Part shown: positions 3,496 through 35,012 of the stretch, piece after piece | Numbering within the stretch: the first letter of the stretch is position 1 | Layout of the letters: each line of letters begins with the position of its first letter | NCBI RefSeq assembly: GCF_902506555.1 | Contig: NZ_LR732707.1 | Location: 1,703,138-1,767,137 of the forward strand | Origin: Sphingorhabdus sp. 109 | GTDB taxonomy: Bacteria > Pseudomonadota > Alphaproteobacteria > Sphingomonadales > Sphingomonadaceae | Reading direction: 5' to 3' | DNA length: 64,000 nt | Program-made: the position numbers and the translations under genes | The notes under the pieces: generated by a model | Told to the model about the DNA's origin: nothing | Databases searched by the model: none | What the model saw: the letters and a program-made list of their open reading frames with translations, nothing else

Positions 3496-3801
3496 ATGTC
3501 CTTTCAGCCCTGTGTCTACATCATGACCAACAAGCCGCGCGGTCTGCCCTATATCGGGGTCACCTCGGACCTGATGAAGCGCATCTACCAACATCGCGCG
3601 GGAATCGCCGACGGATTCACCAAACGCTATACCCTGAACAAGCTCGTGCTGTTCGAACAATATGGAACAATGGAACTGGCGATCACCCGCGAGAAACAGC
3701 TCAAGCGCTGGCACCGGCAATGGAAACTGAACCTGATCGAAGCGAGCAATCCGCATTGGCGCGATCTGGCAGAGGATTTCGGGTTTGAGCCCGTGCGCTA
3801 A
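3496..3801 (+). CDS. GIY-YIG nuclease-domain protein (copy A)
   Basis: A 101-residue single-domain protein of the GIY-YIG/UPF0213 superfamily. Residues 7-9 VYI and 19-21 YIG form the two signature strands. R29 in DLMKRIYQHR is the catalytic Arg position and E66 in TREKQLKRW is the probable metal-binding Glu. SNPHWRDL closes the domain. Families of this size have structure-specific nuclease folds, but no activity has been shown for this group as far as I know. It is flanked on both sides by family 1 palindrome pairs (3297-3393 and 3873-3947). It aligns without gaps to copy B at 34722-35012. The Shine-Dalgarno is weak. Repeat mobilisation or maintenance is an inference from context. Confidence 0.9.
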   Translation: MSFQPCVYIMTNKPRGLPYIGVTSDLMKRIYQHRAGIADGFTKRYTLNKLVLFEQYGTMELAITREKQLKRWHRQWKLNLIEASNPHWRDLAEDFGFEPVR

Positions 3802-3872
3802 TCGTTGGGCAGCGTTACAAAGAAGAAGAACCATCGCTCGGAAGGAAGGATCGTCTTTCTGGAGAATGGGTC

Positions 3873-3947
3873 GTCATCCTGAACTTGTTTCAGGATCCCG
3901 TCCGACAGCGCGAACCGCGAGAGATCCTGAAACAAGTTCAGGATGAC
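3873..3947. repeat. Family 1 palindrome pair, downstream flank of GIY-YIG gene
   Basis: The most perfect copy. The left half contains ATCCTGAA-CTTGT-TTCAGGAT, a perfect 8-bp stem with a 5-base loop. The right half is its exact inverse, ATCCTGAA-ACAAG-TTCAGGAT, and the spacer holds CAGCGCGAACCGCGAGAG. The 354 bases between the GIY-YIG stop and the next gene hold this element; I saw nothing else in the remaining part (3948-4155). Confidence 0.92.
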
Positions 3948-4155
3948 GAAGAAGAGGTGGGCCTGAAAATTGGTACGTTTAGTAAACTGTCACCGTAATT
4001 CCCATCGGGATTAGGACAAAGGCCGGGTCAGATCACCCGCGCTTTGCCTCCTTGACCGGAACTATCAATCGGTCTGCGGTCCGGGGGATAAAGCCGTATG
4101 GAGAGGGATGGTATTGGGCGTGATGATTGATATAACTGTCGCTGTAATTTTTCCC

Positions 4156-4836
4156 TCACCACGAATACGTAATCAGATTCCCAGCGACCCCTGGCGGCAA
4201 GTTTATGTTGATTTCCCGGAGGCCTTTGTTTGCAGGGATCACAAATCGATATTCATCTTGCCAAGCATCCTTGATCGATTTCATAAAATGCGATCGATCG
4301 TCAAATTTAGTGTATTTAACCCGTCCGTATCGCACATTTTCAAACGCTCCTAACGCTGAGATTAGCAACGAAATATCAGTGATCTCCACACAGCATTTTT
4401 TGTTCTCAAATCTTTCGGCAAGCGCTTTCGATTTCGTGTGGGATAAGCAAAGGAGAAACGCATCTTCTTCATAGACATCTATTCTAGTGTCCGGAATAGG
4501 AATTCCGTTACTCCTAAAGTTTATAAACTGTATATTCTGAACATTTTGTCCTATATTTGCAATACCTTCGAATGTCTCCGGGCTAGCTCCATCCCATCGG
4601 AATTGGCGAACTTCATCAGGCGTACTCGTACCGTTTCTCTCCGCTGATCGATAAAAACTGGCGCGCATCAATGGAATCTGGCCCCCTTCAATCCATGTCT
4701 TTGCGTACTCAATTTCGTTCAGGTACAAAAACAATGGTGCGTCGGGCATTTCTCGCAAATTAGAACCATATGGCCCATCAAAGTTAGCCGCCTTAGGATG
4801 TATAGAAGGAAATGGCCAAGCAGAATATATTTTCAT
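4156..4836 (-). CDS. Hypothetical protein of AT-rich composition, probably acquired
   Basis: A 226-residue soluble protein that I do not recognise. It lies 15 bases downstream of nrdB in the same direction. Its base composition is clearly more AT-rich than that of its neighbours, and it uses AT-ending codons that surrounding genes avoid, suggesting horizontal acquisition. Visible features: LFLYLNEIEYAKTWIEGG near residues 35-52, a serine/arginine-rich segment, CLSHTKSKALAERF in the middle, and WQDEYRFVIP near residue 191. The last is reminiscent of the closing EYR motif of DUF2971-type proteins, but that resemblance is weak. No membrane segments or signal peptide. Possibly a defence- or phage-related protein; this is only a guess from context. 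Confidence 0.7.
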   Translation of the reverse strand: MKIYSAWPFPSIHPKAANFDGPYGSNLREMPDAPLFLYLNEIEYAKTWIEGGQIPLMRASFYRSAERNGTSTPDEVRQFRWDGASPETFEGIANIGQNVQNIQFINFRSNGIPIPDTRIDVYEEDAFLLCLSHTKSKALAERFENKKCCVEITDISLLISALGAFENVRYGRVKYTKFDDRSHFMKSIKDAWQDEYRFVIPANKGLREININLPPGVAGNLITYSW

Positions 4837-4851
4837 GCCTTAAACACTCCC

Positions 4852-5904
4852 CTACTCCGCAGCAACCCCCGCTTCCGCAAACATATCCGGCCCGTCATCC
4901 GCAGCGACTTCGTCCTCGTTCGCGACCTTGCCCTTGCGCTTGTCGAAGCTCGACCAGACGTCGTTCCATTCGCCCTTGGTTGCGCCCTTGGAATATTCCG
5001 TCGCGCGGGCTTCGAAGAAATTGGCGTGTTCGACGCCGTTCAGGAGGGGCGCGAGCCAGGGCAGCGGGTGGTCTTCGATCATGTAGATCGGCTGGAAACC
5101 AAGCTGTCCGAGGCGCCAGTCGGCGATATAGCGGATGTAGCGTTTGATTTCCTTGGCGGTCATGCCGGTGACCGGGCCATCGCTGAACGCGAGATCGATG
5201 AACGCATCTTCCAGGCGCACCGTCTTCTGGCAGCAGTCGATAATATCTTCCTTGACCGACTTGGTCAGGCAGTCGCGTTCCTTCACGAACGTGTGGAACA
5301 TCTTGATGATGCCCTCGCAGTGCAGGCTTTCGTCGCGGACCGACCAGGAAACGATCTGGCCCATGCCCTTCATCTTGTTGAAGCGCGGGAAGTTCATCAG
5401 CATGGCAAAGCTGGCGAACAGCTGCAGCCCTTCGGTGAAGCCGCCGAACATCGCCAGCGTCTTGGCGATATCCTCGTCATTGTCGACGCCGAATGTGCCC
5501 ATATAGTCGTGCTTGTCCTTCATCGCTTCATATTCGAGGAACATCGAATATTCGCTTTCCGGCATGCCGATCGTGTCGAGCAGATGCGAGTAGGCGGCGA
5601 TATGGACGGTTTCCATGTTAGAAAAGGCGGTCAGCATCATCTTGATTTCGGTCGGTTTGAACACCCGGCCATATTTGTCGTGATAGCAATCCTGCACCTC
5701 GACATCGGCCTGGGTGAAGAAGCGGAAGATTTGCGTGAGCAGATTGCGTTCGTGATCGGTCAGCTTCTGCGCCCAGTCGCGGCAATCCTCGCCGAGCGGC
5801 ACTTCCTCCGGCATCCAGTGGATCTGCTGCTGCCGCTTCCAGAATTCATAGGCCCATGGATATTCAAAGGGCTTGTAGGTTTTGCGTGCTTCCAGAAGTG
5901 ACAT
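4852..5904 (-). CDS. nrdB: Class Ia ribonucleotide reductase, small (radical) subunit
   Basis: A 350-residue R2 subunit. It houses the diiron-tyrosyl radical used by NrdA to reduce ribonucleoside diphosphates in the cytosol. The metal ligands and radical site are visible: D67 (TQADVEVQD), E98-x2-H101 and Y105 in METVHIAAYSHLL (matching E115/H118/Y122 of E. coli), and later the SVRDESLHCEG ligand pair. The C-terminal tail DDGPDMFAEAGVAAE would bind NrdA. It follows nrdA in the same direction, with a 133-base gap holding a terminator-like hairpin. It starts with ATG at 5904, followed by SLLEARKTYKPFEYPWAYEF. No ATP-cone is present at its N-terminus. Confidence 0.97.
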   Translation of the reverse strand: MSLLEARKTYKPFEYPWAYEFWKRQQQIHWMPEEVPLGEDCRDWAQKLTDHERNLLTQIFRFFTQADVEVQDCYHDKYGRVFKPTEIKMMLTAFSNMETVHIAAYSHLLDTIGMPESEYSMFLEYEAMKDKHDYMGTFGVDNDEDIAKTLAMFGGFTEGLQLFASFAMLMNFPRFNKMKGMGQIVSWSVRDESLHCEGIIKMFHTFVKERDCLTKSVKEDIIDCCQKTVRLEDAFIDLAFSDGPVTGMTAKEIKRYIRYIADWRLGQLGFQPIYMIEDHPLPWLAPLLNGVEHANFFEARATEYSKGATKGEWNDVWSSFDKRKGKVANEDEVAADDGPDMFAEAGVAAE

Positions 5905-5977
5905 GGCTACTCATTCTCCGCTTTACTTTTTTCGTCCCCTCCCCGGGAGAGAGATGAAATACTCCTTTACGCTGCCG

Positions 5978-6018
5978 AAAAAACGGCCCCCTCCCGAAAG
6001 GAGCAAAAGGGAGGGGGC
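5978..6018 (-). terminator. Terminator-like hairpin between nrdA and nrdB
   Basis: On the minus strand, 20 bases after the nrdA stop, a perfect 10-bp stem (GCCCCCTCCC / GGGAGGGGGC, 13-base loop) is followed by CCGTTTTTTCGG, that is, six T. This has the form of an intrinsic terminator lying between two genes of one pathway, so it may attenuate nrdB or mark a processing site. Confidence 0.7.
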
Positions 6019-6037
6019 AGTGGGAAAACTGCCTAAT

Positions 6038-8101
6038 TTACTGACAGGCCAGACATTCGTCATAGTCGGTCGTGCCGGCGGTGGTCATCAGTTCGACCTT
6101 TTTCGGATCGAGCGTATTGTCCGCCTCGACACCGCCGCCAGAGGATTCCGACGCGATCTCGTCGCCACCGGCAAAGCCGGCGCGCTGGATCGATTTCGAG
6201 CGCAGATAATAGAGCGACTTGATGCCCAGCTCCCAGGCGCGGAAGTGCAGCATCAGCAGATCCCATTTGTCGACATCGGCCGGGATGAACAGGTTCAGCG
6301 ACTGCGCCTGATCGATATAGGGTGTGCGGTCGGCAGCCAGTTCGAGCAGCCAGCGCTGGTCGATCTCGAAGCTGGTCTTGTACGCGTCCTTTTCTTCCGG
6401 GCTGAGGAAGTCGAGATGCTGGACGCTGCCGCCCTTCTCGAGGATCGAGTTCCAGACATTGTTGCTGTCCTTGCTCTTCTCCTGCAGCAATTTTTGCAGA
6501 TGCGGGTTCTTGACCACGAAGCTGCCCGAGAGCGTCTTGTGGGTATATATATTCGCCGGGATCGGCTCGATACAGGCCGATGCGCCGCCGCAGATGATGC
6601 TGATCGACGCGGTGGGTGCAATCGCCATCTTGCAGGAGAAGCGCTCCATCACACCCTGGTCGGCGGCATCGGGACAAGGGCCGCGTTCCTTGGCCAGCAT
6701 CATGCTGGCTTCGGAGGCTTTCGCCGAAATATGCTTGAATATCTTGAAATTCCAGGATTTTGCCATGGCGCTTTCAAAACCGAGACCGCGGGCCTGGAGG
6801 AAGCTGTGGAAGCCCATCACGCCGAGGCCGACGCTGCGTTCGCGTTCGGCCGAATATCTGGCGCGCGCCATTTCATCGGGTGCGCGGTCGATATAGTCCT
6901 GCAGCACATTGTCGAGGAAGCGCATGACATCCTCGATAAAGCCCTTGTCGACCGACCATTCGTCCCAGGTTTCGAGATTGAGCGAGGACAGGCAACACAC
7001 TGCGGTCCTGTCCTCGCCAAGATGATCGCGACCCGTGGGCAGTGTGATCTCTGAACAAAGATTGGAAGTGGAAACCTTCAGCCCCAGATCACGGTGATGC
7101 TTGGGCATCATCCGGTTCACCGTGTCGCTGAAAATGATATAGGGCTCGCCGGTGGCCAGCCGCGTCTCGACCAGCTTCTGGAACAGGCTGCGCGCGTCGA
7201 CCGTGCCGCGAACCGAACCGTCTTTCGGCGATTTCAGCTCAAATTCCGTACCGTCGCGCACCGCTTCCATGAACTCGTCGGTTAGAAGAACGCCATGGTG
7301 CAGGTTCAGAGCTTTTCGATTAAAGTCACCGGAAGGCTTTCTGATTTCAAGAAATTCTTCGATTTCCGGATGATTGACGTCGAGATAGCACGCCGCCGAA
7401 CCACGGCGCAGCGAACCCTGCGAAATGGCCAGGGTCAGGCTGTCCATCACGCGGACGAACGGAATGATGCCCGATGTTTTGCCGTTGAGGCCGACCGGCT
7501 CGCCAATCCCGCGAACGCTGCCCCAATAGGTGCCGATGCCACCGCCGCGCGAGGCGAGCCAGACATTTTCGTTCCAGGTGTTGACGATGCCGCCGAGGCT
7601 GTCGTCGACGCTGTTGAGATAGCAGCTGATCGGCAGGCCGCGGCCGGTGCCGCCGTTGGACAGCACGGGTGTTGCCGGCATGAACCATAGCCGCGAAATA
7701 TAGTCATAGAGCCGCTGCGCATGATCCTGATCATCGGCATAGGCGTCGGCAACGCGGGCGAACAGATCCTGATAGGATTCACCGGGCAGCAAATAGCGGT
7801 CGTTGAGCGTTTCCTTGCCGAAGTCGGTCAGCAGATCATCGCGGGATTCGTCCGTCACAATCTTGAAACGGCGCTTTTCGACGCTGTGACTGTCGCGCTC
7901 TGCCTTCAGCTCCTTTTCGTCATTGGCCTTTGTTGCGGCCGCTTCTGCAGCCGCCTTTTTGCTGACCTCCGGCTCGGCAGCCGGCTTTGTATTTTCGGTT
8001 TTGCTTTCCGGCTTGTCCAGTACTTCCGCGCCCATTTCACTCTCACTCACATCTGTTCCCGACACATTCTCATTGTCGCGGTTGTCTCTAAAATCCATCA
8101 C
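6038..8101 (-). CDS. nrdA: Class Ia ribonucleotide reductase, large (catalytic) subunit
   Basis: A 687-residue R1 subunit. It reduces ribonucleoside diphosphates with a thiyl radical generated by NrdB. Catalytic residues are visible: C160 in GLPISCYLNS, N347/C349/E351 in SNLCSEITL, C369/C370 after RTAV, and the C-terminal redox pair in ECLACQ. The first 75 residues are a charged, Ala/Lys/Glu-rich, probably disordered leader. The fold begins near residue 77, without the ATP-cone allosteric domain found at the N-terminus of E. coli NrdA. It is transcribed toward nrdB. A tandem NrdR box lies about 230-280 bases upstream. The start MMDFRD is likely; an initiation one codon later is equally possible. 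Confidence 0.97.
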   Translation of the reverse strand: MMDFRDNRDNENVSGTDVSESEMGAEVLDKPESKTENTKPAAEPEVSKKAAAEAAATKANDEKELKAERDSHSVEKRRFKIVTDESRDDLLTDFGKETLNDRYLLPGESYQDLFARVADAYADDQDHAQRLYDYISRLWFMPATPVLSNGGTGRGLPISCYLNSVDDSLGGIVNTWNENVWLASRGGGIGTYWGSVRGIGEPVGLNGKTSGIIPFVRVMDSLTLAISQGSLRRGSAACYLDVNHPEIEEFLEIRKPSGDFNRKALNLHHGVLLTDEFMEAVRDGTEFELKSPKDGSVRGTVDARSLFQKLVETRLATGEPYIIFSDTVNRMMPKHHRDLGLKVSTSNLCSEITLPTGRDHLGEDRTAVCCLSSLNLETWDEWSVDKGFIEDVMRFLDNVLQDYIDRAPDEMARARYSAERERSVGLGVMGFHSFLQARGLGFESAMAKSWNFKIFKHISAKASEASMMLAKERGPCPDAADQGVMERFSCKMAIAPTASISIICGGASACIEPIPANIYTHKTLSGSFVVKNPHLQKLLQEKSKDSNNVWNSILEKGGSVQHLDFLSPEEKDAYKTSFEIDQRWLLELAADRTPYIDQAQSLNLFIPADVDKWDLLMLHFRAWELGIKSLYYLRSKSIQRAGFAGGDEIASESSGGGVEADNTLDPKKVELMTTAGTTDYDECLACQ

Positions 8102-8332
8102 AGCCCCCTCAAATCACTCTACGCATTCACCGATCACAACGGGTATCAGCCGTTCGATCACCGAGATTGAATCCGGGCGCCTGTTCCTGTCTTGTTCGAC
8201 TCATTGCCGAAACATCTACTGTAACATTTTCCAAGCCCCGGCGGGCATATTTTTCTTGCCCGAATCCGGTATTTCTCACTGTACATTTGGCACAAAGGGA
8301 GGTGTCCACCGAGTCGGTGTTAACGACGTTCA

Positions 8333-8348
8333 ATACTATCAGTTGGTG
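8333..8348. promoter_or_regulatory. NrdR box, proximal to nrdA
   Basis: ATACTATCAGTTGGTG fits the 16-bp NrdR consensus acaCwAtATaTwGtgt at the core positions (CTAT, then GTTG). It is paired with a second box whose start lies exactly 32 bp further upstream, the usual three-turn spacing of tandem NrdR boxes. Confidence 0.75.
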
Positions 8349-8364
8349 TGCCCCCTTGGCCGAA

Positions 8365-8380
8365 CCACAACCTATAGTGG
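8365..8380. promoter_or_regulatory. NrdR box, distal to nrdA, overlapping the likely promoter
   Basis: CCACAACCTATAGTGG (read on the minus strand CCACTATAGGTTGTGG) is a good palindromic match to the NrdR consensus. On the minus strand a TTGCAT (8396-8401), 17 bases, then ACTATA (8373-8378) could be a sigma-70 promoter, with its -10 inside this box. NrdR bound here would block nrdA-nrdB transcription when (d)ATP is plentiful. Confidence 0.8.
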
Positions 8381-8822
8381 CTGAATCAGAATTTTATGCA
8401 AGGGGGTAAATTACATTTTAACGACTCTGTTCGTCGTATAAATGAATCGCTTCGTCGTCGGCCGATTTTGCCCGACAGGCCGCGACGCGTGGACCTTCTA
8501 GGCCTGCCGCGATGCGCAAGACCCGAAGCCAATATTTACAAAAAAACTTTCCCACAAATCATCCACAGGGTGTGGTGACACAATTATGACACCATATCTG
8601 GTGGGTCATATGTTCGATCTCCATTTCGCCGCGCCAGAATTTTTGACGCCTCGCCATTAACCATATTGGCGGCAATGGGAAATTTTGCGCGAAAGAAAGT
8701 CTGCCGAGGAAAGGAATCGCTCTGTCATCAACCGACCGCGATCAAAAGAACGATCCGGATCGATGACCGGCAGCGATGAAACAGGCGTTAGACACGGACC
8801 GTTGCCAATGCCTTCCCGAATC
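8381..8822. other. Intergenic region without recognised gene
   Basis: About 440 bases between the nrdA control region and the 3' end of the EamA exporter gene. Only short, unconvincing open frames are present. An AT-rich segment (8521-8700) has TTTACAAAAAAACTTTCCC and TTATCCACAG-like motifs (AATCATCCACAGGG, 8558-8571) that faintly resemble DnaA boxes, but they are too few to call an origin. Confidence 0.5.
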
Positions 8823-9710
8823 TCAACGCTGTTCGCGATCGACGAGCAATGCGGTGGCCGGTTTGGGTCTGAGGGCCACGATCAGCACCCCGCCAATCGC
8901 CAGCGCCGCGCCCAGCGCCATGCGCAGATCGAACGCATCATTGGTGATCCAGACGCCCAATCCGATCGTCGCCAGCGGCGTTATCAGCGTGAGTGGCGCC
9001 AGAAGATTGGCTTCATATTGGCGGATCAGGGAATAATAAGCGGAGTGCGCACCGACCGAAACGATCAGGGCGGTAAACAGCACGGCGGCAGCGAGAGGCC
9101 AGCCGACAGCGATTGCGGCGGACCATTGACCCTGCTCGAACAGCGCCGAGCTCAGGGTCAGGATGATCACCGACACCAGGCCGACCCAGGCCTGAAAGCG
9201 GAATGGCGTAACATTGTCTACGCGTTTCATCAGAACCGCCCCGGCGGATCCGGCAAAGGCAGCGGCCGCCACAAACCAAAGGCCCGTCGACAGGGCCAAT
9301 CCTTCCGGACGCCATATAACCAGCATCACCCCTAGCAGAGTCAGAGCAATGCCGGCTCCCCGCCGCCAGTGAATTCGCTCGCCGAGCATGATAACCGACA
9401 GCAGCAGCGTGAACGGAACCCCCAGCTGCAGGATGATGGCAGCCGAAGACGGCGAGGTCGTCTGCAGGCCGATAAACAGCAGCGCAAAATTGCCGCCCCC
9501 CATCAGCATGCCGATCAATATGATGCGCCAAGCCGGTCGGGGCATCGGCAGCAGCCAGGGCAGCATCACCAGCGCCACCACTGCAAAGCGCAGCGCCGCA
9601 TAGAATACAGGCGGAACCGCCCAGTCATCGACGATGATCTTGCTCAAGACATTGTTCGAAGCCCAGATCAGGCATATCAATATGAGAAGCAGGAAATCAC
9701 GCGCGCGCAT
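8823..9710 (-). CDS. EamA/DMT-family transporter (RhaT/YdcZ type exporter)
   Basis: A 295-residue inner-membrane protein with ten hydrophobic segments in two EamA repeats. The first repeat starts LLILICLIWASNNVLSKII and has the usual FYAALRFAVVALVMLP; the second begins near residue 145. Such proteins export small metabolites such as amino acids and purine derivatives; the substrate cannot be read from the sequence. The gene is divergent from the fumarase gene, with 257 bases between them. The start MRARDF is the only good one. Confidence 0.92.
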   Translation of the reverse strand: MRARDFLLLILICLIWASNNVLSKIIVDDWAVPPVFYAALRFAVVALVMLPWLLPMPRPAWRIILIGMLMGGGNFALLFIGLQTTSPSSAAIILQLGVPFTLLLSVIMLGERIHWRRGAGIALTLLGVMLVIWRPEGLALSTGLWFVAAAAFAGSAGAVLMKRVDNVTPFRFQAWVGLVSVIILTLSSALFEQGQWSAAIAVGWPLAAAVLFTALIVSVGAHSAYYSLIRQYEANLLAPLTLITPLATIGLGVWITNDAFDLRMALGAALAIGGVLIVALRPKPATALLVDREQR

Positions 9711-9967
9711 AGCTTTGGGGTTCCTTGGTGTACCGATGAAATTTCCCGCTCGATCATCCGTATCGCTTCATCGGCTCGTCCGCAATCACAGCGTGTAACG
9801 GCAACCGATTATATATTGCATCATATTGATAGCCGCCTGGCACCGTTCGCCCATGATATCCGGGGTCTATATTCACAAAGCAAAGCATAGCGACAAAAAC
9901 TTGCCCGGTCCGGTCATATCGGCCTAAAGGCAGTCCAACCGCATTCCGTCGATATTCTGGAGCATTC

Positions 9968-11491
9968 ATGACCACGACCATCAAGACCGCCGATTTGATC
10001 GAGAGCGTCGCAGACGCGCTGCAATTCATCTCTTACTATCACCCGATGGATTATATACGGGCACTCGGCAAAGCCTATGAAGCGGAAAAATCGCCAGCTG
10101 CCAAGGATGCGATTGCCCAGATCCTGACCAATTCAAAAATGTGCGCCGAAGGCCACCGGCCGATCTGTCAGGATACCGGCATCGTCAATGTCTTCGTCAA
10201 ATGGGGCATGGATTGCCGGCTGGATGACACATCGCAATCGATGCAGGAAATTGTCGATGAAGGCGTGCGTCGCGCCTATCTCCATCCGGAGAACAAGCTG
10301 CGCGCCTCGATCCTGGCCGATCCCGCCTTCACCCGGCGCAACACCAAGGACAACACGCCAAGCGTGCTGCATGTCGAAATGGTGCCCGGCGACAAGGTCT
10401 CCGTCGATGTCGCGGCCAAGGGCGGCGGATCGGAGAATAAATCCAAGTTCAAGATGATGAACCCGAGCGACAATATCGTTGACTGGGTGCTGGAAATGAT
10501 CCCGCAGATGGGCGCCGGCTGGTGCCCGCCCGGGATGCTCGGCATCGGCATTGGCGGAACCGCGGAACGCGCCGTATTGCTGGCCAAGCAGAGCCTGATG
10601 GACCCGATCGACATGGGCCAGCTCAAGGAGCGCGGTCCGCGCAACGATATCGAGGAAATGCGGATCGAGATTTTCGACAAGGTCAACGCGCTGGGCATCG
10701 GCGCGCAGGGACTGGGCGGACTCTCGACCATCCTCGACGTCAAGATCAATGACTGGCCTTGCCATGCGGCGGGCAAACCGGTTGCGATGATCCCCAATTG
10801 CGCCGCCACCCGCCACGCGCATTTCACGCTCGACGGCAGTGGGCCGGCCTATCTCGAAGCGCCGAAGCTCGACGAATGGCCGGACGTCAACTGGACGCCG
10901 TCCTCAGAAGCGAAGCGCGTGCACCTCGACCAGCTGGATGCCGCCGAAGTCGCGACCTGGAAACATGGCGACCGGCTGCTGCTCAATGGCAAGATGCTGA
11001 CCGGCCGCGATGCGGCACACAAGAAGATCAAGGATATGCTGGCAGCCGGCGAAGAGCTGCCAGTCGATTTCAAAGGCCGCGTCATCTATTATGTCGGGCC
11101 CGTCGATCCGGTCGGCGAGGAAGTGGTGGGCCCGGCCGGTCCGACCACCGCGACGCGGATGGACAAGTTCACCGACATGATGCTGGAACAGGGCCTGCTG
11201 GCGATGGTCGGCAAGGCCGAACGCGGGCTGGACACGGTCGGTTCGATCAAGAAGCACAAGAGCGCCTATCTGATGGCCGTCGGCGGCAGCGCCTATCTGG
11301 TGTCCCGCGCCATCAAAGGCTCGAAGGTCGTCGGCTTTGAAGAGCTCGGCATGGAGGCGATCTACGAATTCGAAGTGCAGGACATGCCGGTCACGGTCGC
11401 GGTCGATGCCGAAGGCCAGAGCGTGCACCATCTGGCGCCGCTGGTGTGGCAGGAGAAGATCAGGAAAGAAGGTTTGCTCGAAGGCGTCTGA
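9968..11491 (+). CDS. Class I (iron-sulfur) fumarate hydratase
   Basis: A 507-residue enzyme that interconverts fumarate and L-malate in the TCA cycle. It is the homodimeric [4Fe-4S] type, related to FumA/FumB. Three cluster-ligand cysteines are visible in the conserved contexts RPICQDTGIVNVF, GAGWCPPGMLGIGIGG and MIPNCAATRHAHF. The C-terminal swinging domain holds the conserved PVDPVGEEVVGPAGPTTATRM. The length is typical of the family. It starts at ATG 9968, after TCTGGAGCATTC (GGAG). It is a single gene, convergent with the dehydrogenase downstream. Confidence 0.96.
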   Translation: MTTTIKTADLIESVADALQFISYYHPMDYIRALGKAYEAEKSPAAKDAIAQILTNSKMCAEGHRPICQDTGIVNVFVKWGMDCRLDDTSQSMQEIVDEGVRRAYLHPENKLRASILADPAFTRRNTKDNTPSVLHVEMVPGDKVSVDVAAKGGGSENKSKFKMMNPSDNIVDWVLEMIPQMGAGWCPPGMLGIGIGGTAERAVLLAKQSLMDPIDMGQLKERGPRNDIEEMRIEIFDKVNALGIGAQGLGGLSTILDVKINDWPCHAAGKPVAMIPNCAATRHAHFTLDGSGPAYLEAPKLDEWPDVNWTPSSEAKRVHLDQLDAAEVATWKHGDRLLLNGKMLTGRDAAHKKIKDMLAAGEELPVDFKGRVIYYVGPVDPVGEEVVGPAGPTTATRMDKFTDMMLEQGLLAMVGKAERGLDTVGSIKKHKSAYLMAVGGSAYLVSRAIKGSKVVGFEELGMEAIYEFEVQDMPVTVAVDAEGQSVHHLAPLVWQEKIRKEGLLEGV

Positions 11492-11508
11492 CTTCGCGGG
11501 ATTAGGGA

Positions 11509-11535
11509 GTCGCCCCCTGCCCAGGCTGGGGCGAC
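11509..11535. terminator. Hairpin between convergent genes
   Basis: Perfect 8-bp stem GTCGCCCC / GGGGCGAC with an 11-base loop, located between the fumarase stop (11491) and the dehydrogenase stop (11545). It has no U-tract, so its role as a terminator is tentative. Confidence 0.45.
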
Positions 11536-11544
11536 CGCCGGCAA

Positions 11545-26374: not shown

Positions 26375-26378
26375 TGAT

Positions 26379-26936: not shown

Positions 26937-26948
26937 GCCTCACCCTTC

Positions 26949-27455: not shown

Positions 27456-27460
27456 CGGCG

Positions 27461-27994: not shown

Positions 27995-28016
27995 GGGAAC
28001 GCAATCGATCCTTTCG

Positions 28017-29444
28017 TCAAGCCGTGCCACCGACGGTCAGGGCGTCTACCAGCAAGGTCGGCTGGCCAACACCGGCGGGGACGGACTGGCCGCCCTTGCC
28101 ACACATGCCGATGCCTTCGTCGAGCGCCATGTCATTGCCAATACCGGAAACCTTGGTCAGCACGGTCGGCCCATCGCCAATCAGCGTTGCGCCCTTGATA
28201 GGAGCGCCCAGCTTGCCGTTTTCAATCTTGTACGCCTCGGTACAGGAGAAGACGAACTTGCCGGAGACAATATCCACCTGCCCGCCGCCGAAGCTTTTCG
28301 CATAAATGCCGTTCTTGACCCGGCTCATCAATTCGTCGGGATCATCCTTGCCGCCCCGCATGAACGTATTGGTCATCCGCGGCATCGGCGCATGGGCGTA
28401 GCTTTCCCGGCGGCCGTTCCCGGTCGCCGGCACGCCCATCAGGCGGGCGTTCAGCCGGTCCTGCATATAGCATTTCAATATGCCATCCTCGATCAGGACA
28501 TTTTCCTGTGTCGGCGTGCCTTCGTCATCAATGCTCAGCGAGCCGCGCCGCTCCTTGATCGAACCGTCATCGACCACGGTGACGCCCGGTGCCGCCACGC
28601 GCTCGCCAATCTTGCCGGAAAAGGCACTGGTGCCCTTGCGGTTGAAGTCGCCTTCAAGGCCATGGCCGATGGCTTCGTGCAATATGATGCCGGGCCAGCC
28701 GGGGCCGAGCAAAACGGTCTGTTCACCCGCTGGCGCGTCCACGCTCTCGAGATTGACCAGAGCCTGCGCCAGAGCCTCATCGACTGCACGGTTCCAGCGC
28801 GCTTCCTCGAACAAATCGTCGTAAAGATAGCGTCCGCCCATGCCGAAGCTGCCGCTTTCGCGCCGGCCGTTCTGTTCCGCTACGATCGAAACATTGAGCC
28901 GTACCAGAGGCCGAACATCGGTGGCGACAAAGCCATCAGGACGAACAATTTCGACGACACTCCAGCTGCCGGACAGGCCAACGGAAACCTGCGAGACGCG
29001 GGGATCGCGCGCGCGGGCAGCGGTATCAATCTGCTGGCAAAGCGCAACTTTCTTGGCGAAGGGTATCGCCTCCAGCGGATTCGCCTCGCCATAGAGATGC
29101 CGGTTACTGCCGCGCGGCGGCGGGGCTTTCTGCCCCTTGGCCGGATCGAGCAATTGCAGGGTCTGGGCTGCGCGTTTTATCGCCGCTTCGCTGGTGTCGT
29201 TACTGTAGGAAAAACCCGTCATCTCGCCGGATACCCCGCGCAGGCCGAACCCGCTATCGGTACTGTAGTCCGCGGTCTTCAGACGGCCGTCGTCAAAACC
29301 GAAGCTCTCCATAGCGCTATATTGCAGATAGAGTTCACCATCGTCGCATGCAGACAGACTCTCGGCAACGAGCGTCTTGGCACGCTCCGGGTCAAGGCCG
29401 TCGGGACGATAAAGAAATGAGCGGGGATCGAGCTTTTCTGTCAT
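28017..29444 (-). CDS. tldD: Metalloprotease TldD
   Basis: A 475-residue subunit of the TldD/TldE (PmbA) zinc protease that degrades unfolded peptides, matures microcin B17 and removes leader peptides. The metal site is HEAIGH (residues 256-261) followed by GLEGDFNRKG. The family segments DDGSIKERRGSLSIDDEGTPTQ and MGVPATGNGRRESYAHAP are also clear. The partner tldE/pmbA is not next to it, as is usual. It starts with ATG at 29444; the short distance to the zinc-ribbon gene (48 bases) suggests separate or read-through transcription. Confidence 0.96.
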   Translation of the reverse strand: MTEKLDPRSFLYRPDGLDPERAKTLVAESLSACDDGELYLQYSAMESFGFDDGRLKTADYSTDSGFGLRGVSGEMTGFSYSNDTSEAAIKRAAQTLQLLDPAKGQKAPPPRGSNRHLYGEANPLEAIPFAKKVALCQQIDTAARARDPRVSQVSVGLSGSWSVVEIVRPDGFVATDVRPLVRLNVSIVAEQNGRRESGSFGMGGRYLYDDLFEEARWNRAVDEALAQALVNLESVDAPAGEQTVLLGPGWPGIILHEAIGHGLEGDFNRKGTSAFSGKIGERVAAPGVTVVDDGSIKERRGSLSIDDEGTPTQENVLIEDGILKCYMQDRLNARLMGVPATGNGRRESYAHAPMPRMTNTFMRGGKDDPDELMSRVKNGIYAKSFGGGQVDIVSGKFVFSCTEAYKIENGKLGAPIKGATLIGDGPTVLTKVSGIGNDMALDEGIGMCGKGGQSVPAGVGQPTLLVDALTVGGTA

Positions 29445-29492
29445 CCCGTATATATAGAAATATATTGAGGAGCTTACACCCCCTATGTCGGA

Positions 29493-29702
29493 TTAATCTT
29501 TGGCGAGTGCCGGGGAGATGTCAGCGGGGCCGCCGATCAGAACGAATCGCCGGTCGCAATAGCCGCATTCGACATAGCCCTTTTCGTCAATTTCCAGCCA
29601 GACGCGGGGGTGGCCCAAGGCAGCGCCGCCCGGGATATCGGTGGCTCCGTCGCAGGATACGCGTTTTTTCGAGGTTTTGACGATTTCGGGAGTTTCAATC
29701 AT
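29493..29702 (-). CDS. Zinc-finger (zf-CHCC / NDUFS6-like) protein
   Basis: A 69-residue protein with the zf-CHCC pattern: Cys in RVSCDG, then GHPRVWLEI, and [13 protein letters not shown] (C-H-C-C ligands). In mitochondria the related NDUFS6 is a zinc subunit of complex I; in Alphaproteobacteria such stand-alone proteins are conserved and are a plausible accessory factor of NADH dehydrogenase. It starts at ATG 29702. Confidence 0.88.
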
Positions 29703-29770
29703 GGCGGTGAATTAGCAACAGATTTGCGGGCGCGCAATATTTTCTCACGCCCGTCTGCAATGATACAATA

Positions 29771-30316
29771 TCATTGATAATCGACAGTCATGATGAAGGA
29801 CCCGCGATAGGCCCCCGTCTGCTGATTGCCATTCACGCGCAACCGCCCGCCGACCGTCAGATTATAAATGCCGAGTGTCCCCAGCAGACCGCGAACGAAC
29901 GTGCTGAAATTCCGGTTTCCGTTGCCGATCGCAAGCTGGTCCACCCGCATCTGGTCCGTGCCGTTCGTATGGGTTACCATCAAGGACCCGGGGATCGATA
30001 TTTCGACGATCTGGTTCGGCCCGCCATAGATTATGAAATTGGCCGGACCGGTCACGCCACCGGCCAGCGTCGCATCACCCGTAGTCGATACATTGCCGTT
30101 GCGGGTATCGACGGTGACGGTGCCATTTCCGGTTCCGGATATGATATTGCCATATCGCAGATCCTGGGTCTTCACCACGGATAGCGGACCTATGGTCACC
30201 GCCCGGGCATCGGTATTGCTAGCCTGGGCAAAGGCGGCCGGCGAACCTGTCAGAATGACAAGCACGACGAAAAGGCCACCAATCAGGCGTGGTAAGATTT
30301 GTTCTCTGGTCATCAC
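29771..30316 (-). CDS. DUF4402 secreted protein
   Basis: A 181-residue exported protein. Residues 1-30 are a signal peptide ending AFAQA. The mature beta-rich part carries LSVVKTQDLRYGNIISGTG near its start and ends GSFIMTVDYQ, as in DUF4402 proteins, which are small surface or pilus-like beta-sandwich proteins. The many Gly, Thr and Asn residues fit a secreted adhesin-like fold. There is no chaperone or usher gene next to it. The start could be the first or second Met. Confidence 0.85.
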   Translation of the reverse strand: MMTREQILPRLIGGLFVVLVILTGSPAAFAQASNTDARAVTIGPLSVVKTQDLRYGNIISGTGNGTVTVDTRNGNVSTTGDATLAGGVTGPANFIIYGGPNQIVEISIPGSLMVTHTNGTDQMRVDQLAIGNGNRNFSTFVRGLLGTLGIYNLTVGGRLRVNGNQQTGAYRGSFIMTVDYQ

Positions 30317-30721
30317 AAAATCTGTCCTATATCGGTTGTTAACTCTCTTATATCGATAGGTGTAACTTTATCTTTATCCGCATGGTTAAATTCATCGTAA
30401 CCTTTTAAGATAACGACGTATAATATTGATATTATTTGATAATATTATTCATTCTGCCGCCAACAAGTTCACCCAATATCCTGTTGACCGGCCGCATTTT
30501 CTTTCTCCCATATTGTTTACGGGCTAGCCGGAAGACATGAAGCAAATGGGCCGAAAACATGGTTAACGGAGCGGTTACCAATTGATGCGAACCCGCATAT
30601 TGGTTGGACAAGCATGATAGCACCCCGGCATCACAGCCTGCTCAGGATGCTGCCTGCCCCTCCATGTTACGCTCCTGCCAAAGCCTTTGATTATGAGAAT
30701 TAAACTGGGTATGCCGCCCGA
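30317..30721. other. AT-rich intergenic region
   Basis: About 405 bases upstream of two divergent genes (DUF4402 and ABC ATPase). The middle part (30340-30460) is much richer in A and T than its surroundings, with many short TTATAT/ATAATATT-like repeats. One 63-codon open frame (30432-30623) has no family resemblance. I see no RNA gene. Confidence 0.5.
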
Positions 30722-31660
30722 ATGAATGATGCAGCAATATCGATACAGAATCTTTCCAAAACATATGCCGGCGGCAAACAGGCGTTGGACGATGTCAGCT
30801 TTGACGTACCGCGCGGTTCGATTTTCGGACTATTGGGCCCCAATGGTGCCGGCAAGTCGACATTGATCAACATCCTCTCCGGGATGGTGCGCAAGACGAG
30901 TGGCAGTGCCAGCATCTGGGGCTTCGATATCGATGACAGCCCGCGCAACGCGAAAGCGTCGATCGGCATCGTTCCGCAGGAAATCATCTTCGATCCGTTT
31001 TTCACGCCCTCAGAAGCATTGGAAGTGCAGGCCGGCCTCTACGGCGTCCCGAAAGCGAAGCGCCGGACCATGGAATTGCTGCGCGCCGTCCATCTGGAAG
31101 ACAAGGCCGACGCCTACGCCCGGACGCTGTCGGGCGGGATGAAGCGGCGGCTGCTGGTGGCCAAGGCCATGGTCCATTCGCCGCCGATACTGGTGCTCGA
31201 CGAACCGACCGCGGGCGTCGACATCGATCTGCGCCAGCAGCTCTGGGAATATGTGGTGGAACTCAACAAGGCCGGCGTTACCATCGTGCTGACAACGCAT
31301 TATCTCGAGGAAGCGGAAAATCTCTGCGAGCGGATCGCGATTATCAATCACGGCAAGCTGATCGCCAACAAGCCGACGCCCGAACTGGTCGATATGGCGC
31401 GTGAAAAGCTGGTCGAACTGACGCTGGACCGCGACATCAGCAAGGCACAGGATGCGGTTTCTTTTGCCAATGACCTATTTGAAAAGGCCGAAATCATTGG
31501 TCCCCGCACGGTTGCCGTCACCTATAACAAGGACCGGACCAATGCCGGTGGCGTTATGGCAGCGATCCAAGAACGCGGGTTCGCGATCGTCGACGTCACC
31601 ACCCGGGAAGCGGATCTTGAGGATGTGTTTCTCAACCTGACCCGCGCCAAAGCGGCATGA
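30722..31660 (+). CDS. ABC transporter ATP-binding protein (ABC-2 type, YadG-like)
   Basis: A 312-residue ATPase. Walker A GPNGAGKST is at about residues 39-47, the signature is LSGGMKRRLLVAKA, Walker B is ILVLDEPTAGVD and the switch is TTHYLEEAE. The C-terminal 80 residues form the extra domain seen in ABC-2 exporters. No permease gene is adjacent: the next gene is nadB, whose start overlaps the stop (ATGA 31657-31660). The partner permease must be encoded elsewhere or this is an unusual arrangement. The substrate is unknown. Confidence 0.93.
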   Translation: MNDAAISIQNLSKTYAGGKQALDDVSFDVPRGSIFGLLGPNGAGKSTLINILSGMVRKTSGSASIWGFDIDDSPRNAKASIGIVPQEIIFDPFFTPSEALEVQAGLYGVPKAKRRTMELLRAVHLEDKADAYARTLSGGMKRRLLVAKAMVHSPPILVLDEPTAGVDIDLRQQLWEYVVELNKAGVTIVLTTHYLEEAENLCERIAIINHGKLIANKPTPELVDMAREKLVELTLDRDISKAQDAVSFANDLFEKAEIIGPRTVAVTYNKDRTNAGGVMAAIQERGFAIVDVTTREADLEDVFLNLTRAKAA

Positions 31661-33249
31661 ATCACGATGTCATCATTGTCGGGTCCGGCGCAGCCGGACT
31701 GAGCGCGGCGATCACGCTCGCCCGTACCCACAAGGTGCTGGTGCTGGCCAAGGGTGAACTGACCGGCGGCTCCACAGCCTGGGCGCAGGGTGGGATTGCC
31801 GCCGTACTCGACGCCGGTGACACGTTCGAGAACCATATCAACGACACGATGGTCGCCGGTGCCGGTCTCAATCGCCGCAAAACGGTTGAATTTGTCGTCG
31901 AAAATGCGCCGGCCGCGATTGAGCGGCTGGAGGATATGGGGGTGCCGTTCAACAAGGAAGCGGAAGTCCTCCACCTGACCCGCGAGGGCGGCCACAGCCA
32001 CCGGCGGATCGTCCATGTCGACGACGCTACCGGCTGGGCGGTGCAGGAAGCCTTGCAGAATACCGCTGCGGCCCACCCGAACATCACGCTACGCCCGCAT
32101 ATGGTAGCGATCGACCTGATCGTCGACCGCCATGCGGAGGCGCCGACCGGCGCGAAAAATGTCTGGGGCGTCTATGCGCTGAACAACGAAACCGGCCATG
32201 TCGAGACGCTGACTTCGCGCGCGACGATCATGGCGAGCGGCGGAGCCGGACGGACCTATCTGTTCTCGACCGCCCCGCGCGGCGCGACCGGCGACGGCAT
32301 CGCCATGGCTTGGCGCGCGGGTGCACGGGTTTCCAATATGGAGATGATGCAGTTTCACCCGACCTGCCTCTATAATCTCGAGGTCAAGAATTTCCTGATC
32401 ACCGAAGCGGTGCGCGGCGAAGGCGGGCATCTCAAACTGCCGGCCGATGCCGGCGACGAAGCCGGTGACCGCTTCATGCAGCGCTTCGATCCGGAACGGA
32501 TGGAACTGGCCCCGCGCGATATTGTCGCGCGCGCCAACGACCACGAGATCAAGCGGCTCGGGCTCGACTATGTCCATCTCGACATCTCGCACCGCGATCC
32601 GGAATTTGTGAAGGGGCATTTCCCGAATATCTATGACAAGCTGATTGGCCTTGGCATCGATATGACAACCGGGCCGATCCCTGTGGTTCCCGCACAACAT
32701 TATACCTGCGGCGGGATATTGATCGATCTGGCCGGCCGCACCGACTTGCCCGGCCTTTATGCAGCGGGTGAAGCCAGCGAAAGCGGCCTGCACGGTGCCA
32801 ACCGGCTGGCCTCCAACAGCCTGCTCGAATGTTTCGTCTTCGGTGACGCGGCGGCGCGGGATATTGCCGAACACTGGGACGAGCTCCCTGCTCCGCCGGC
32901 GATCCGGCCATGGGACGAAAGCCGCGTCACCGACAGCGACGAGGAGGTGGTGATCAAGCAGACCTGGACCGAAATCCGCCGCTTCATGTGGAATTATGTC
33001 GGCATTGTTCGCACCACCAAGAGGCTCGAGCGGGCCCAGAATCGCATTAACCTGCTGCGCGAGGAAGTTGAGGAATATTACAGCAATTTCCGCGTGACCC
33101 AGGATCTGATCGAACTGCGCAACCTGATCGAAGTTGCGGATCTGATCGTGAAGTCAGCCCTGGCGAGGAAGGAAAGCCGGGGCTTGCACTATATCACCGA
33201 TTATCCGGACCTGCTGCCCGAGGCGGTGGATACGGTGCTGGTGCCTTAA
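31657..33249 (+). CDS. nadB: L-aspartate oxidase (NAD biosynthesis)
   Basis: A 530-residue flavoenzyme that oxidises L-aspartate to iminoaspartate, the first step of de novo NAD synthesis. The FAD-binding DVIIVGSGAAGLSAAITLA is at residues 3-21. STAWAQGGIAAVLD, MMQFHPTCLYN, PAQHYTCGG (active site) and LPGLYAAGEASESGLHGANR are characteristic of NadB rather than of succinate dehydrogenase. The length is typical. nadA and nadC are not in the window. Its start overlaps the ABC ATPase stop by 4 bases, implying translational coupling. Confidence 0.96.
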   Translation: MNHDVIIVGSGAAGLSAAITLARTHKVLVLAKGELTGGSTAWAQGGIAAVLDAGDTFENHINDTMVAGAGLNRRKTVEFVVENAPAAIERLEDMGVPFNKEAEVLHLTREGGHSHRRIVHVDDATGWAVQEALQNTAAAHPNITLRPHMVAIDLIVDRHAEAPTGAKNVWGVYALNNETGHVETLTSRATIMASGGAGRTYLFSTAPRGATGDGIAMAWRAGARVSNMEMMQFHPTCLYNLEVKNFLITEAVRGEGGHLKLPADAGDEAGDRFMQRFDPERMELAPRDIVARANDHEIKRLGLDYVHLDISHRDPEFVKGHFPNIYDKLIGLGIDMTTGPIPVVPAQHYTCGGILIDLAGRTDLPGLYAAGEASESGLHGANRLASNSLLECFVFGDAAARDIAEHWDELPAPPAIRPWDESRVTDSDEEVVIKQTWTEIRRFMWNYVGIVRTTKRLERAQNRINLLREEVEEYYSNFRVTQDLIELRNLIEVADLIVKSALARKESRGLHYITDYPDLLPEAVDTVLVP

Positions 33250-33285
33250 ACCGGATTCCAGTCTGGCCGATCGCAGGCACTCGCG

Positions 33286-34296
33286 TCAATTGTCCAGCAC
33301 GATACGATAGCGCGCCTCCCCGCTCTCCAGATGCGCCAGCGCCTCGTTGATCTTCTCGAAGGGGAAATGCTCGGTAACAGCTTTGATATTATGGCGCGCG
33401 CAAAACTCAAGCATGTCGGCAAGTGTCCGAGGGCTCCCGACGAGGGAGGAAGAAAGCGACAATTGGGAAAACATCAGAGGCATCAGCTGCAACTCGGCAG
33501 GCACAGCCTGAACGCCGAGAAAGTGCAATCGGCCTTTTGGCTTCAGCATGGCAATAATGGCATTCCAGTCCAGTGCCACATCGACCGTGCTCAAAATCAC
33601 GTCGAAGCTGCCTGCTGCCGCGGCTATCGCTTCGGGGTCGCGGGAATTGATTACATCATGGGCACCGAAAGCCATGGCTTCGTCATTTTTGGAGGCACTG
33701 GACGTCAGCGCCGTGACATGGCAGCCCCAAGCCTTGCCGAATTGTAATGCCAGATGCCCCAGGCCGCCAATACCCAGCACAGCGATGCGGTCGGTTGGCT
33801 TGATGTCAAATTTTACAAAGGGATTAAACACGGTGATGCCTGCGCAGAACAATGGCCCTGCATCCCGGGAATCCAGTCCGTCCGGCAATTTTATCACGCT
33901 GACGCCCGACGCCCGGACGATGTCCGCAAATGCCCCGTGACGGCCGGGTGACACTGTAGACTGCACGGTCTCGCAGAGATTGTGATCGCCGTTCAGGCAT
34001 TGTGAACAGGTCATGCAATAATGCGAATGGCCGCCCAGCCCGACGCGGTCGCCTGTCTTGACATGTGTCACTTCAGCGCCCGTCTCGATCACGGTGCCGG
34101 TGGCTTCATGCCCGCCGACAAAGGGAAATTCGGTGATGCCCCAGGCGTTGTTGCGCAAGCTGAGGTCGGTATGGCAGAGACCGCAATGCTCGACCCTGAT
34201 ATCGATATCGTGGGAGCCCAAAGGCCCCAGTTGATATTCGAACGGTTCCAGCTGGTTTCCGGCCTGAGGGGCTGCAAATGCCTTTACAGTGCGCAT
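33286..34296 (-). CDS. Zinc-dependent alcohol dehydrogenase (YahK/cinnamyl-type)
   Basis: A 336-residue medium-chain dehydrogenase. Catalytic zinc ligands are in HCGLCHTDLS and GGHEATG. The structural zinc site has CMTCSQCLNGDHNLCE. The NADP-binding motif is GIGGLGHLALQFG. This spacing fits the YahK/CAD group of broad-range NADPH aldehyde reductases. It stands alone on the minus strand. It starts with ATG at 34296 after CAGGAGAATC. Confidence 0.94.
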   Translation of the reverse strand: MRTVKAFAAPQAGNQLEPFEYQLGPLGSHDIDIRVEHCGLCHTDLSLRNNAWGITEFPFVGGHEATGTVIETGAEVTHVKTGDRVGLGGHSHYCMTCSQCLNGDHNLCETVQSTVSPGRHGAFADIVRASGVSVIKLPDGLDSRDAGPLFCAGITVFNPFVKFDIKPTDRIAVLGIGGLGHLALQFGKAWGCHVTALTSSASKNDEAMAFGAHDVINSRDPEAIAAAAGSFDVILSTVDVALDWNAIIAMLKPKGRLHFLGVQAVPAELQLMPLMFSQLSLSSSLVGSPRTLADMLEFCARHNIKAVTEHFPFEKINEALAHLESGEARYRIVLDN

Positions 34297-34624
34297 GGTG
34301 GCGATTCTCCTGTGCTCGCGATCTGATTTTGAGCGAACCTGTCATATCCCGGCGCTTTAAGACACTGTCATATCAGGTGAGCCCGAAGGTCATGACCATC
34401 GTCGACGGGATAATGTCCTGCCGCTTTGCCAGTCGATCGCACCCGCTTGACGCTCGCCTCCTGTTTCGCCGGATGTTCTGGTTCAAACGACAGAGGTTTC
34501 ACCTCCTGTTGGCAAGCCGATGCAACTGGCCGGGGTCGGTTGAATGTCTCCGCCGCGAGGTCTTTGCACCGCATAGACCTGCCACGCGAGGCAGGGAATA
34601 GGACTCGGTTATCCTGAGGAAGTG
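34297..34624. other. Intergenic region without recognised gene
   Basis: About 330 bases between the dehydrogenase start and the first family 2 palindrome. Only short open frames are present, with no family match and no clear promoter. Nothing else is seen. Confidence 0.5.
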
Positions 34625-34725
34625 CTTGCCTCCAAGGCTCCGCATCATGTGCGGAGCACAGCATCTGTTCCAGCGAGCGCCTGCAATAATGTGCTCCGCG
34701 CTTGACGCGGAGCCCTGCGGGCTAG
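34625..34725. repeat. Family 2 palindrome pair, downstream flank of GIY-YIG gene
   Basis: Begins CTTGCCTCC and ends GCCCTGCGGGCTAG, with two inverted halves: GCTCCGCA-TCATG-TGCGGAGC and, about 30 bases later, GCTCCGCG-CTTGA-CGCGGAGC. The stems are 8 bp with 5-base loops. The base pair before the loop differs between halves but stays complementary (A-T versus G-C). The last bases contain the stop codon (TAG, 34722-34724) of the GIY-YIG gene. Confidence 0.92.
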
Positions 34726-35012
34726 ATGATATCGTGGTAGAGATCGCGCCATTCGGGGTTACCCTCCTCAATCAGCGCTATTTTCCATTCCCGGCGCCAT
34801 TTCTTGAGTTTCCATTCACGCGCCCTTGCGTCCTGAATATCATCATGCGTTTCAAACCAGACCAGCAAGGAACAATCATGTTCCTTTGAATATCCCTCGA
34901 TCAGCTTGTTGCGATGCTGATAGGCGCGCTGCACCAGATTGCTGGTGACGCCGAGATAGGTTTTTCCGCGCCGCCTGTTGGCCATGAGATAGACGTGGCC
35001 GGCTTTGGTCAT
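34722..35012 (-). CDS. GIY-YIG nuclease-domain protein (copy B)
   Basis: A 96-residue protein of the GIY-YIG/UPF0213 superfamily. It aligns without gaps to copy A at 3496-3801 over residues 7-95: VYL (7-9), YLG (19-21), R29 and YQHR, E66 in AREWKLKKW, and GNPEWRDLYHD. Start: ATG at 35012; the frame stays open upstream into the repeat. It is enclosed by family 2 palindrome pairs, one 17 bases upstream of the start and one that overlaps its stop codon. The close fit suggests that gene and repeats form one unit. The enzymatic role is inferred. Confidence 0.9.
   Translation of the reverse strand: MTKAGHVYLMANRRRGKTYLGVTSNLVQRAYQHRNKLIEGYSKEHDCSLLVWFETHDDIQDARAREWKLKKWRREWKIALIEEGNPEWRDLYHDII

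Follow-up and report, generated by a model that had tools for sequence, protein, structure and literature searches.

In a 64,000-nucleotide stretch of the 3.62-Mb genome of Sphingorhabdus sp. 109 (G000:C2:1703138-1767137, hereafter the window), two genes for small GIY-YIG proteins, copy A and copy B, are each bracketed by palindromes, of one family around copy A and of another around copy B. The comparison with related genes strongly supports, at the level of sequence, the co-divergence of nuclease and palindrome, and we consider it probable that the small GIY-YIG protein is a site-specific nuclease for the stem-loop bracketing its own gene, the pair diverging as a unit. An earlier note on this DNA had described two GIY-YIG paralogues, each with its cognate palindrome; both are real, align without gaps and are flanked by palindromes, but the host genome holds five small GIY-YIG genes rather than two, all of them flanked by repeats, in addition to UvrC.

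Both proteins belong to the GIY-YIG superfamily, since they match the Pfam domain PF01541 above its curated cut-off of 22.6 bits (58.1 bits for copy A and 52.5 bits for copy B) and carry the conserved Tyr, Arg and Glu residues. Conservation exceeds 95% at each of the positions Y8, Y19, R29 and E66; from the known GIY-YIG enzymes, we take Y19, R29 and E66 to be catalytic. The two copies are 45% identical, with a gapless alignment from VY(I/L) to NPxWRDL, and the nearest named relatives of copy A come from a Sphingomonadales metagenome-assembled genome and from Parasphingorhabdus flavimaris. No NCBIfam family was found for either copy at E<=0.001. As for the other paralogues of the host genome, L003 is flanked by the palindrome CCCCTGC-n4-GCAGGGG, L004 by ACCCTGAA-CTTGT-TTCAGGGT and relatives, and L001 by an asymmetric repeat around GAGCTTGTCGAA. 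Another small GIY-YIG match of the same genome, at G000:C2:1870143-1870337, is partial and has an in-frame stop.

Family A (ATCCTGAA-CTTGT-TTCAGGAT) has window sites that start at 996, 1047, 1717, 3300, 3876 and 3924, and a seventh match, at 39950, has an unrelated loop, while the sites of family B (GCTCCGC(A/G)-(CTTGA/TCAAG and variants)-(T/C)GCGGAGC) start at 34637, 34693, 35040 and 35077. As the earlier note had proposed, both families combine an 8-bp stem with a 5-nt loop, differ in their sequences and occur as inverted pairs. With up to two mismatches, family A gives seven matches in the window versus 0.02 in shuffled sequence and family B five versus 1.39; the latter test is weak, so that family B rests on its four exact sites in the window and 28 exact sites in the genome, where the reversed pattern gives none. 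Genome-wide, family A has 61 sites at up to two mismatches, including neighbouring types (ACCCTGAA, ATGCTGAA) or chance matches, and 38 at up to one, with no site for the reversed control. Counted as singlets and pairs, the 55 listed of the 61 family A sites comprise 27 single sites and 28 in 14 pairs, and the 28 family B sites comprise ten single sites and 18 in nine pairs, with on average fewer than 0.1 pairs expected from random placement in either family. In all 14 A pairs among the listed sites, a CTTGT-like loop comes first and an ACAAG-like loop second, at a distance of 45-62 bp in all but two, where it is 29-30 bp, and the seven free B pairs run with a single polarity from a CTTGA-like to a TCAAG-like loop, 50-54 bp apart. 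Moreover, copies of about 80 bp of the pair beside copy A, spacer included, occur in at least 22 of the 32 genomes of the genus, mostly at 78-90% identity. These inverted, dispersed units agree with the organization resembling that of repetitive extragenic palindromes (REPs) and their doublets (REPINs) that had been expected.

For the comparative analysis, we searched at three taxonomic levels. The genus was represented by 32 genomes and the family by 59, of which 46 gave a match; of 396 genomes of the phylum, 261 gave one at E<=0.001, in many cases a weak one. In the genus search, small genes with long matches were taken, leaving out UvrC and eight short or odd matches, and part of the matches listed in the family and phylum searches were taken as loci. 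Among 252 loci, 14 were without a kept gene (UvrC, six of a shorter type, fragments and duplicates); the 339 loci gave 324 distinct genes, 244 of them with a called palindrome. The class of a palindrome, defined by its loop length and its inner four base pairs, was called automatically, for loops of 4-6 nt with a stem score of at least 7 within 160 bp.

Hairpins crowd around these genes. Within 50 bp of the gene, we counted 62 upstream and 63 downstream per 100 genes (238 genes), versus 0-5, mostly 2-4, per 50 bp per 100 genes at distances above 300 bp; chance proximity is ruled out by this density profile. The upstream palindrome keeps a fixed distance from the gene, with its centre in many cases 35 bp ahead of the start codon; the downstream copy in many cases overlaps the stop codon or lies after it. 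Among the 5-nt loops listed, the nearest upstream ones are CTTGT or CTTGA in 91 cases and ACAAG in four, and the nearest downstream ones are ACAAG, ACGAG or TCAAG in 78 cases versus CTTGT, CTCGT or CTTGA in 14. The gene thus sits between inverted copies with the polarity of the free pairs, as if it had replaced the spacer. Furthermore, the tetranucleotide CGTC adjoins 372 of the 527 class hairpins versus 6% of random spots, its orientation is outward from the gene in 274 of 370 cases, and in the class of family A it is found in 204 of 223, with the variant tags TGTC and CCTC outside the count. The consensus outside the TGAA-class stems is CGTC on one side and ATGG on the other strand.

The palindrome class follows the relatedness of the proteins. 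For pairs from different genomes, class agreement is 1.4% at 30-40% protein identity, 3.2% at 40-50%, 17% at 50-60%, 74% at 60-70% and 94% at 70-80%; taken together, it is 3% below 50% identity and 94% above 70%. The Mantel correlation is 0.469 for the 244 genes (null maximum, 0.067) and 0.234 for 145 genes thinned at 75% identity (null maximum, 0.098), and in 176 of 244 cases the class agrees with that of the nearest protein from a different genome (null maximum, 65). On a tree of 148 thinned proteins (134 labelled rows), the class changes 43 times, versus at least 79 times in 300 label shuffles. Copy A is placed among proteins with mostly CTGAA-CTTGT-TTCAG palindromes; copy B belongs to a starred set of eight rows, whose palindromes all begin with GCTCC or GTTCC while the inner bases and the loop vary by sub-branch. 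Branches of proteins and palindromes are matched, in line with the divergence of the two together that had been foreseen. In most cases, we did not find unrelated palindromes beside close proteins or the same palindrome beside distant ones; the exceptions include class CCGC, which occurs beside distant proteins, and the seven of 106 paralogue pairs within a genome, copy A and L004 among them, that have a class in common.

It was possible to locate a candidate for the determinant of this specificity. In particular, column 71 (copy A numbering) best separates same-class from other-class pairs matched for identity (0.68 versus 0.25). With 4-nt loops, the third pair from the loop is C or T with K/R71, A with A/S/T71 and G with E/N/Q71. 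This correspondence fits 81 of 92 thinned genes, with 54 of 60 for the family set and 27 of 32 for the remainder, the latter not being a blind figure since the residue groups were defined with the full table of genes in view. At stem position -3, residue 71 alone tells a purine from a pyrimidine in 93.5% of the 92 thinned 4-nt-loop genes (in-sample), versus 75% for the next-best column. Among closest pairs, it differs in 34 of the 36 that differ in base class and in 12 of the 44 that agree, a difference of 0.67 versus 0.24 for the next column. Residue 73 refines the picture: in the 53 unthinned genes that combine K/R71 with C or T at this pair, all 21 with N73 have C, and 16 of the 17 with K73 have T. 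With 5-nt loops, K71 accompanies a pyrimidine at the second pair (-2) in 9 of 10 genes and a purine in 3 of 116. Even among 4-nt-loop pairs below 50% identity, residue 71 is common to 68% of 400 same-class pairs versus 23% of 2553 others, and because distant pairs of the same class share this residue, the presence of CCGC beside distant proteins looks like convergence on that residue.

In the AlphaFold2 model of copy A (mean pLDDT 94.4), a helix spanning residues 59-71 bears E66 and K70, residue 71 ends it, and residues 72-73 turn into the next helix. Two proteins examined later, from Neisseria gonorrhoeae and Azospirillum, both fit the correspondence; they were found with the query L027, which is itself KxN. 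A protein from Planktothrix carries G71, and its gene is without a palindrome. S73 falls, in 38 of 45 cases, in genes without a symmetric palindrome; it is present in the KAGSRKKK branch (L045, L047, L054 and L078), where asymmetric repeats (parts of GCGAGCGCAGCGAAGCAATCCAG and CTCTGGATTGC) replace the symmetric palindromes, and in the E branch. That each nuclease would recognize its own hairpin, as the earlier note had put it, gains support that is indirect, from the residue-to-base-pair correlation.

Nuclease and palindrome also change together at a single locus. In eleven genomes of the genus, a nuclease gene lies between two genes that, from the reading of their ends, we take to be sucD-like and sucA-like. 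The palindromes at this locus are of three kinds, namely, GCCCCTGC, CCCTGCC/CACCGGC and GTCCCCGC/ATTCCCGC (L072 and L079, of the GCCCCTGC kind, have one distant GTCCCCGC copy as well), and the proteins are 66-99% identical within a kind and 56-67% between kinds. In four genomes, where the flanks are 86-95% identical in every pair, the proteins show 95% (L029/L051) and 99% (L049/L055) identity within a kind and 63-65% between kinds. With flanks equally identical throughout, the fall in protein identity from 95-99% within a kind to 63-65% between kinds would be best explained if nuclease and palindromes had been replaced together, and the two may have been exchanged as a cassette. A sharp cassette boundary was considered and rejected: the identity between L049 and L051 is 78-100% outside and 22-75% inside, and since the drop falls where the neighbouring coding regions end, the boundary proves nothing by itself.

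With regard to the free pairs, five genomes (the host itself, G002, G012, G013 and G022) match through the pair at 993-1070 of the window, and G006 and G009 have other sequence there; a clean empty site was not found among the genomes compared, though the occupancy differs. Across the 32 genomes of the genus, copy number is higher where the gene is present for family A (p=0.025), family B (p=0.016) and the TGCCAGC type (p=0.0005), and for a 6-nt-loop family, which is too rare, the value is p=0.07; in these tests, presence was assigned by hand, gene-adjacent sites were subtracted and relatedness was left uncorrected. The palindromes adjoining the TGCCAGC-type nucleases (L070, L071, L075 and L076) are in tandem, with a period of about 125 bp.

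Several observations weigh against the proposal that enzyme and palindrome form a diverging, mobile unit. As many as 80 of the 324 genes have no callable symmetric palindrome and stay outside the correlation tests, part of them having asymmetric repeats, and no flanking repeats were found in the LAFWTYMLLC branch (L007, L008, L009, L011, L017 and L020, at one shared locus), which is perhaps a domesticated form. After thinning at 60% identity to 55 genes, the Mantel correlation of 0.122 lies inside the null range (maximum, 0.174), even though the nearest-neighbour test is still above it (16 versus a null maximum of 14). Tree support is low (97 columns), and copy A and L004 have the same inner stem and loop, with a different outer stem, although the proteins are just 53% identical. 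The CGTC tag is patchy, adjoining 41 of 78 hairpins of the CCGC class, 15 of 38 of the CTGC class and none of the 12 of the copy B class. The starred tests on independent pairs, with one to four pairs each, go mostly in the expected direction and are too few for significance. The nuclease genes stand mostly at shared loci within the genus and are therefore not frequent jumpers themselves, which gives no support to frequent transposition of the gene within the genus. Copy number follows gene presence just loosely, and up to 43-45 copies are found in genomes that lack the gene; such copies would fit past activity, provision in trans or a function that has nothing to do with spread. Finally, the GIY-YIG domain hydrolyses DNA, and we know of no strand-transfer step for it.

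On the mechanism that we favour, the substrate would be the CGTC-type REP stem-loop found on either side of the nuclease's own gene. The protein may read the loop-proximal base pairs of the stem and the loop length, partly via residues 71 and 73, at the junction that follows the catalytic helix with E66 and K70; by such a reading of inner stem and loop length, enzyme and palindrome would come to diverge as a unit. The inverted pairs of about 80 bp would represent the non-autonomous, REPIN-like form, and in the gene-bearing form, of the same polarity, the gene would stand where those pairs have the spacer. The nuclease would most likely nick the extruded or single-stranded hairpin, and repair would then copy or convert palindrome pairs at new or homologous places. 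Judging from sequence, we hold recognition of the palindrome by its cognate nuclease to be highly probable and cleavage of the hairpin to be likely; as to whether the nuclease directly helps the palindromes to spread, we are almost evenly divided and lean slightly towards the negative.

A different purpose can be imagined for the same recognition. Nucleases of the Ssn type might cut incoming or replicating single-stranded DNA at self repeats, for instance, modulating natural transformation, in which case the repeats would be selected genome marks and not mobile elements. The gonococcal relative lies within an array of dRS3-type repeats, and a Neisseria protein reportedly cuts single-stranded DNA and affects transformation, so that this alternative may well have merit, though we incline against it. 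It shares the recognition part with the mechanism proposed above and differs from it just in purpose, and the dispersal of the units of about 80 bp, spacer included, through most genomes of the genus, with one site variably occupied, looks like spread. It is improbable that the flanking palindromes are the gene's own regulatory hairpins (operators, attenuators or terminators), bound by the protein in autoregulation: the fixed distance of the upstream copy from the start and the overlap of the downstream copy with the stop, or its position after it, would suit such a role, but the copies distant from the gene number in the dozens, at least half of them paired, and they resemble published CGTC REPs. 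Very improbable, and contradicted by the data, is also the possibility that REPs, being common between genes, agree with the nuclease just through chance or co-inheritance with the locus: REP-like repeats are indeed frequent and the loci of the genus largely orthologous, but the hairpin density near the genes is about 20-fold that of the background, the shorter GIY-YIG type of the same genus (six loci, MHYVY-like start) has just scattered unrelated hairpins, the palindromes of paralogues in one genome seldom agree, at one locus protein kind switches with palindrome kind between flanks that are 86-95% identical, and residue 71 is common to distant proteins whose palindromes agree.

The features of the window are collected in Table 1.

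Table 1. Nuclease genes and palindromes of families A and B in the window
Feature	Position	Strand	Basis
Copy A, small GIY-YIG nuclease, 101 aa; K70-R71-W72-H73-R74	3496..3801	+	AlphaFold2 mean pLDDT 94.4
Copy B, small GIY-YIG nuclease, 96 aa	34725..35012	-	Pfam match, alignment with copy A
Family A palindrome upstream of copy A	3300..3320		Sequence pattern
Disrupted family A palindrome; arms about 20 extra bases apart, as if by insertion in the loop	3350..3390		Read from sequence
Inverted family A pair downstream of copy A; 27-nt fully complementary arms, CGTC at the outer ends	3871..3949		
Free inverted family A pair, intergenic; occupancy varies among genomes	993..1070		
Family A singlet	1717..1737		Sequence pattern
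Two family B palindromes downstream of copy B (34637-34657, 34693-34713)	34637..34713		
Two family B palindromes upstream of copy B (35040-35060, 35077-35097)	35040..35097		

Outside the sphingomonads, a small GIY-YIG gene without palindromes (L353, 892-1176) lies on a Planktothrix plasmid, with an MmeI-type restriction gene on one side and DISARM drmA on the other, and phage records gave 12 distant matches (34-36% identity among those listed). Over 86 residues, the N. gonorrhoeae protein shares 58% identity with L027; with K71 and N73, it fits the residue 71 correspondence. Its gene lies within the dRS3-type array, where ATTCCCGC-N4-GCGGGAAT occurs in nine exact copies and two near ones. The corresponding record (L352, NZ_CP119142.1, 2.17 Mb) is filed as a plasmid and, judging by its size, is probably the chromosome.

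UPF0213 proteins of known structure (1zg2 and 1ywl), the N-terminal domain of UvrC and Slx1 are the best relatives by sequence profile and among the best matches by fold, none of the latter at E<=0.001. To our knowledge, no repeats are associated with UPF0213 proteins, the UvrC N-terminal domain or Slx1. Three proteins of the shorter type with the MHYVY-like start had no NCBIfam family at E<=0.01, so that the name UPF0213-like for that type is presumptive.

A further parallel may be Ssn, reportedly a group of site-specific, single-strand GIY-YIG nucleases with cognate repeats in Neisseria and others, said to have appeared in Nature Communications in 2025 in a study centred on Neisseria, transformation and the cutting of single-stranded DNA; presumably, the gonococcal homologue is the protein named Ssn. 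The likeness lies in a small single-domain GIY-YIG protein with repeats as its cognate sites, and it lowers the novelty of the pairing of nuclease and repeat itself. The paired REPIN-like form, the five paralogues in one genome and the correlation at residues 71 and 73 come from this analysis and may go beyond that study.

The earlier note had called the system apparently undescribed. A literature search, with incomplete journal coverage, found no paper linking GIY-YIG with REPINs, REPs, Ssn, dRS3, sphingomonad palindromes or CGTC REPs; the claim has to be narrowed, given the reported Ssn family and the resemblance of the palindromes to published CGTC REPs (PMC3733652). In that survey, CGTC REPs have 8-9 bp stems and 4-5 nt loops, are mostly dimers, are found mainly in alphaproteobacteria, have a CGTC end that is often TGTC or CCTC and a CCA-like tail, and include the Neisseria dRS3 as CGTC-1 (Di Nocera et al. 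2013; PMC3733652). The palindromes considered here are like them in stem and loop sizes and in their dimers of opposite orientation, even though a few families have 6-nt loops; CGTC adjoins many of them, and those of the copy B type are without the CGTC end. Unlike the CGTC REPs of that account (PMC3733652), they bracket GIY-YIG genes and track their specificity.

The second comparison is with RAYTs, the HUH tyrosine transposases that go with GTAG-tagged REPs, according to the same source (PMC3733652). As in RAYT/REPIN systems and REPtrons (PMC3116915), the unit is an inverted palindrome pair, an enzyme gene is adjacent and a genome holds several families, each with enzymes of its own; the dispersed inverted doublet with its spacer is present in the 14 A pairs and in the seven free B pairs of one polarity. 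Outside the TGAA-class stems, the consensus is CGTC/ATGG and not a GTAG tag. An HUH transposase is excluded, as the adjacent protein is GIY-YIG: unlike in RAYT systems, the enzyme is a nuclease of this superfamily and the repeats are of the CGTC type (PMC3733652). The 2013 survey leaves the CGTC REPs, dRS3 included, without an enzyme or dedicated transposase across alphaproteobacteria and Neisseria (PMC3733652). Tentatively, and with some doubt on our part, the small GIY-YIG nucleases could be the missing dedicated enzymes of these REPs and form a hydrolytic mobilizing system parallel to RAYT/REPIN, with a specificity coded by residue 71, together with residue 73, for the third pair of 4-nt loops or the second pair of 5-nt loops. 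The matched set of nucleases with its residue-to-base-pair correlation makes the origin of the REPs testable by swaps of one or two residues. If the proposal is true, it would offer a compact protein scaffold for nucleases that act on hairpins or single strands with differing specificities and a second, independent case of co-evolution between an enzyme and its REPs, comparable with that of the RAYTs.

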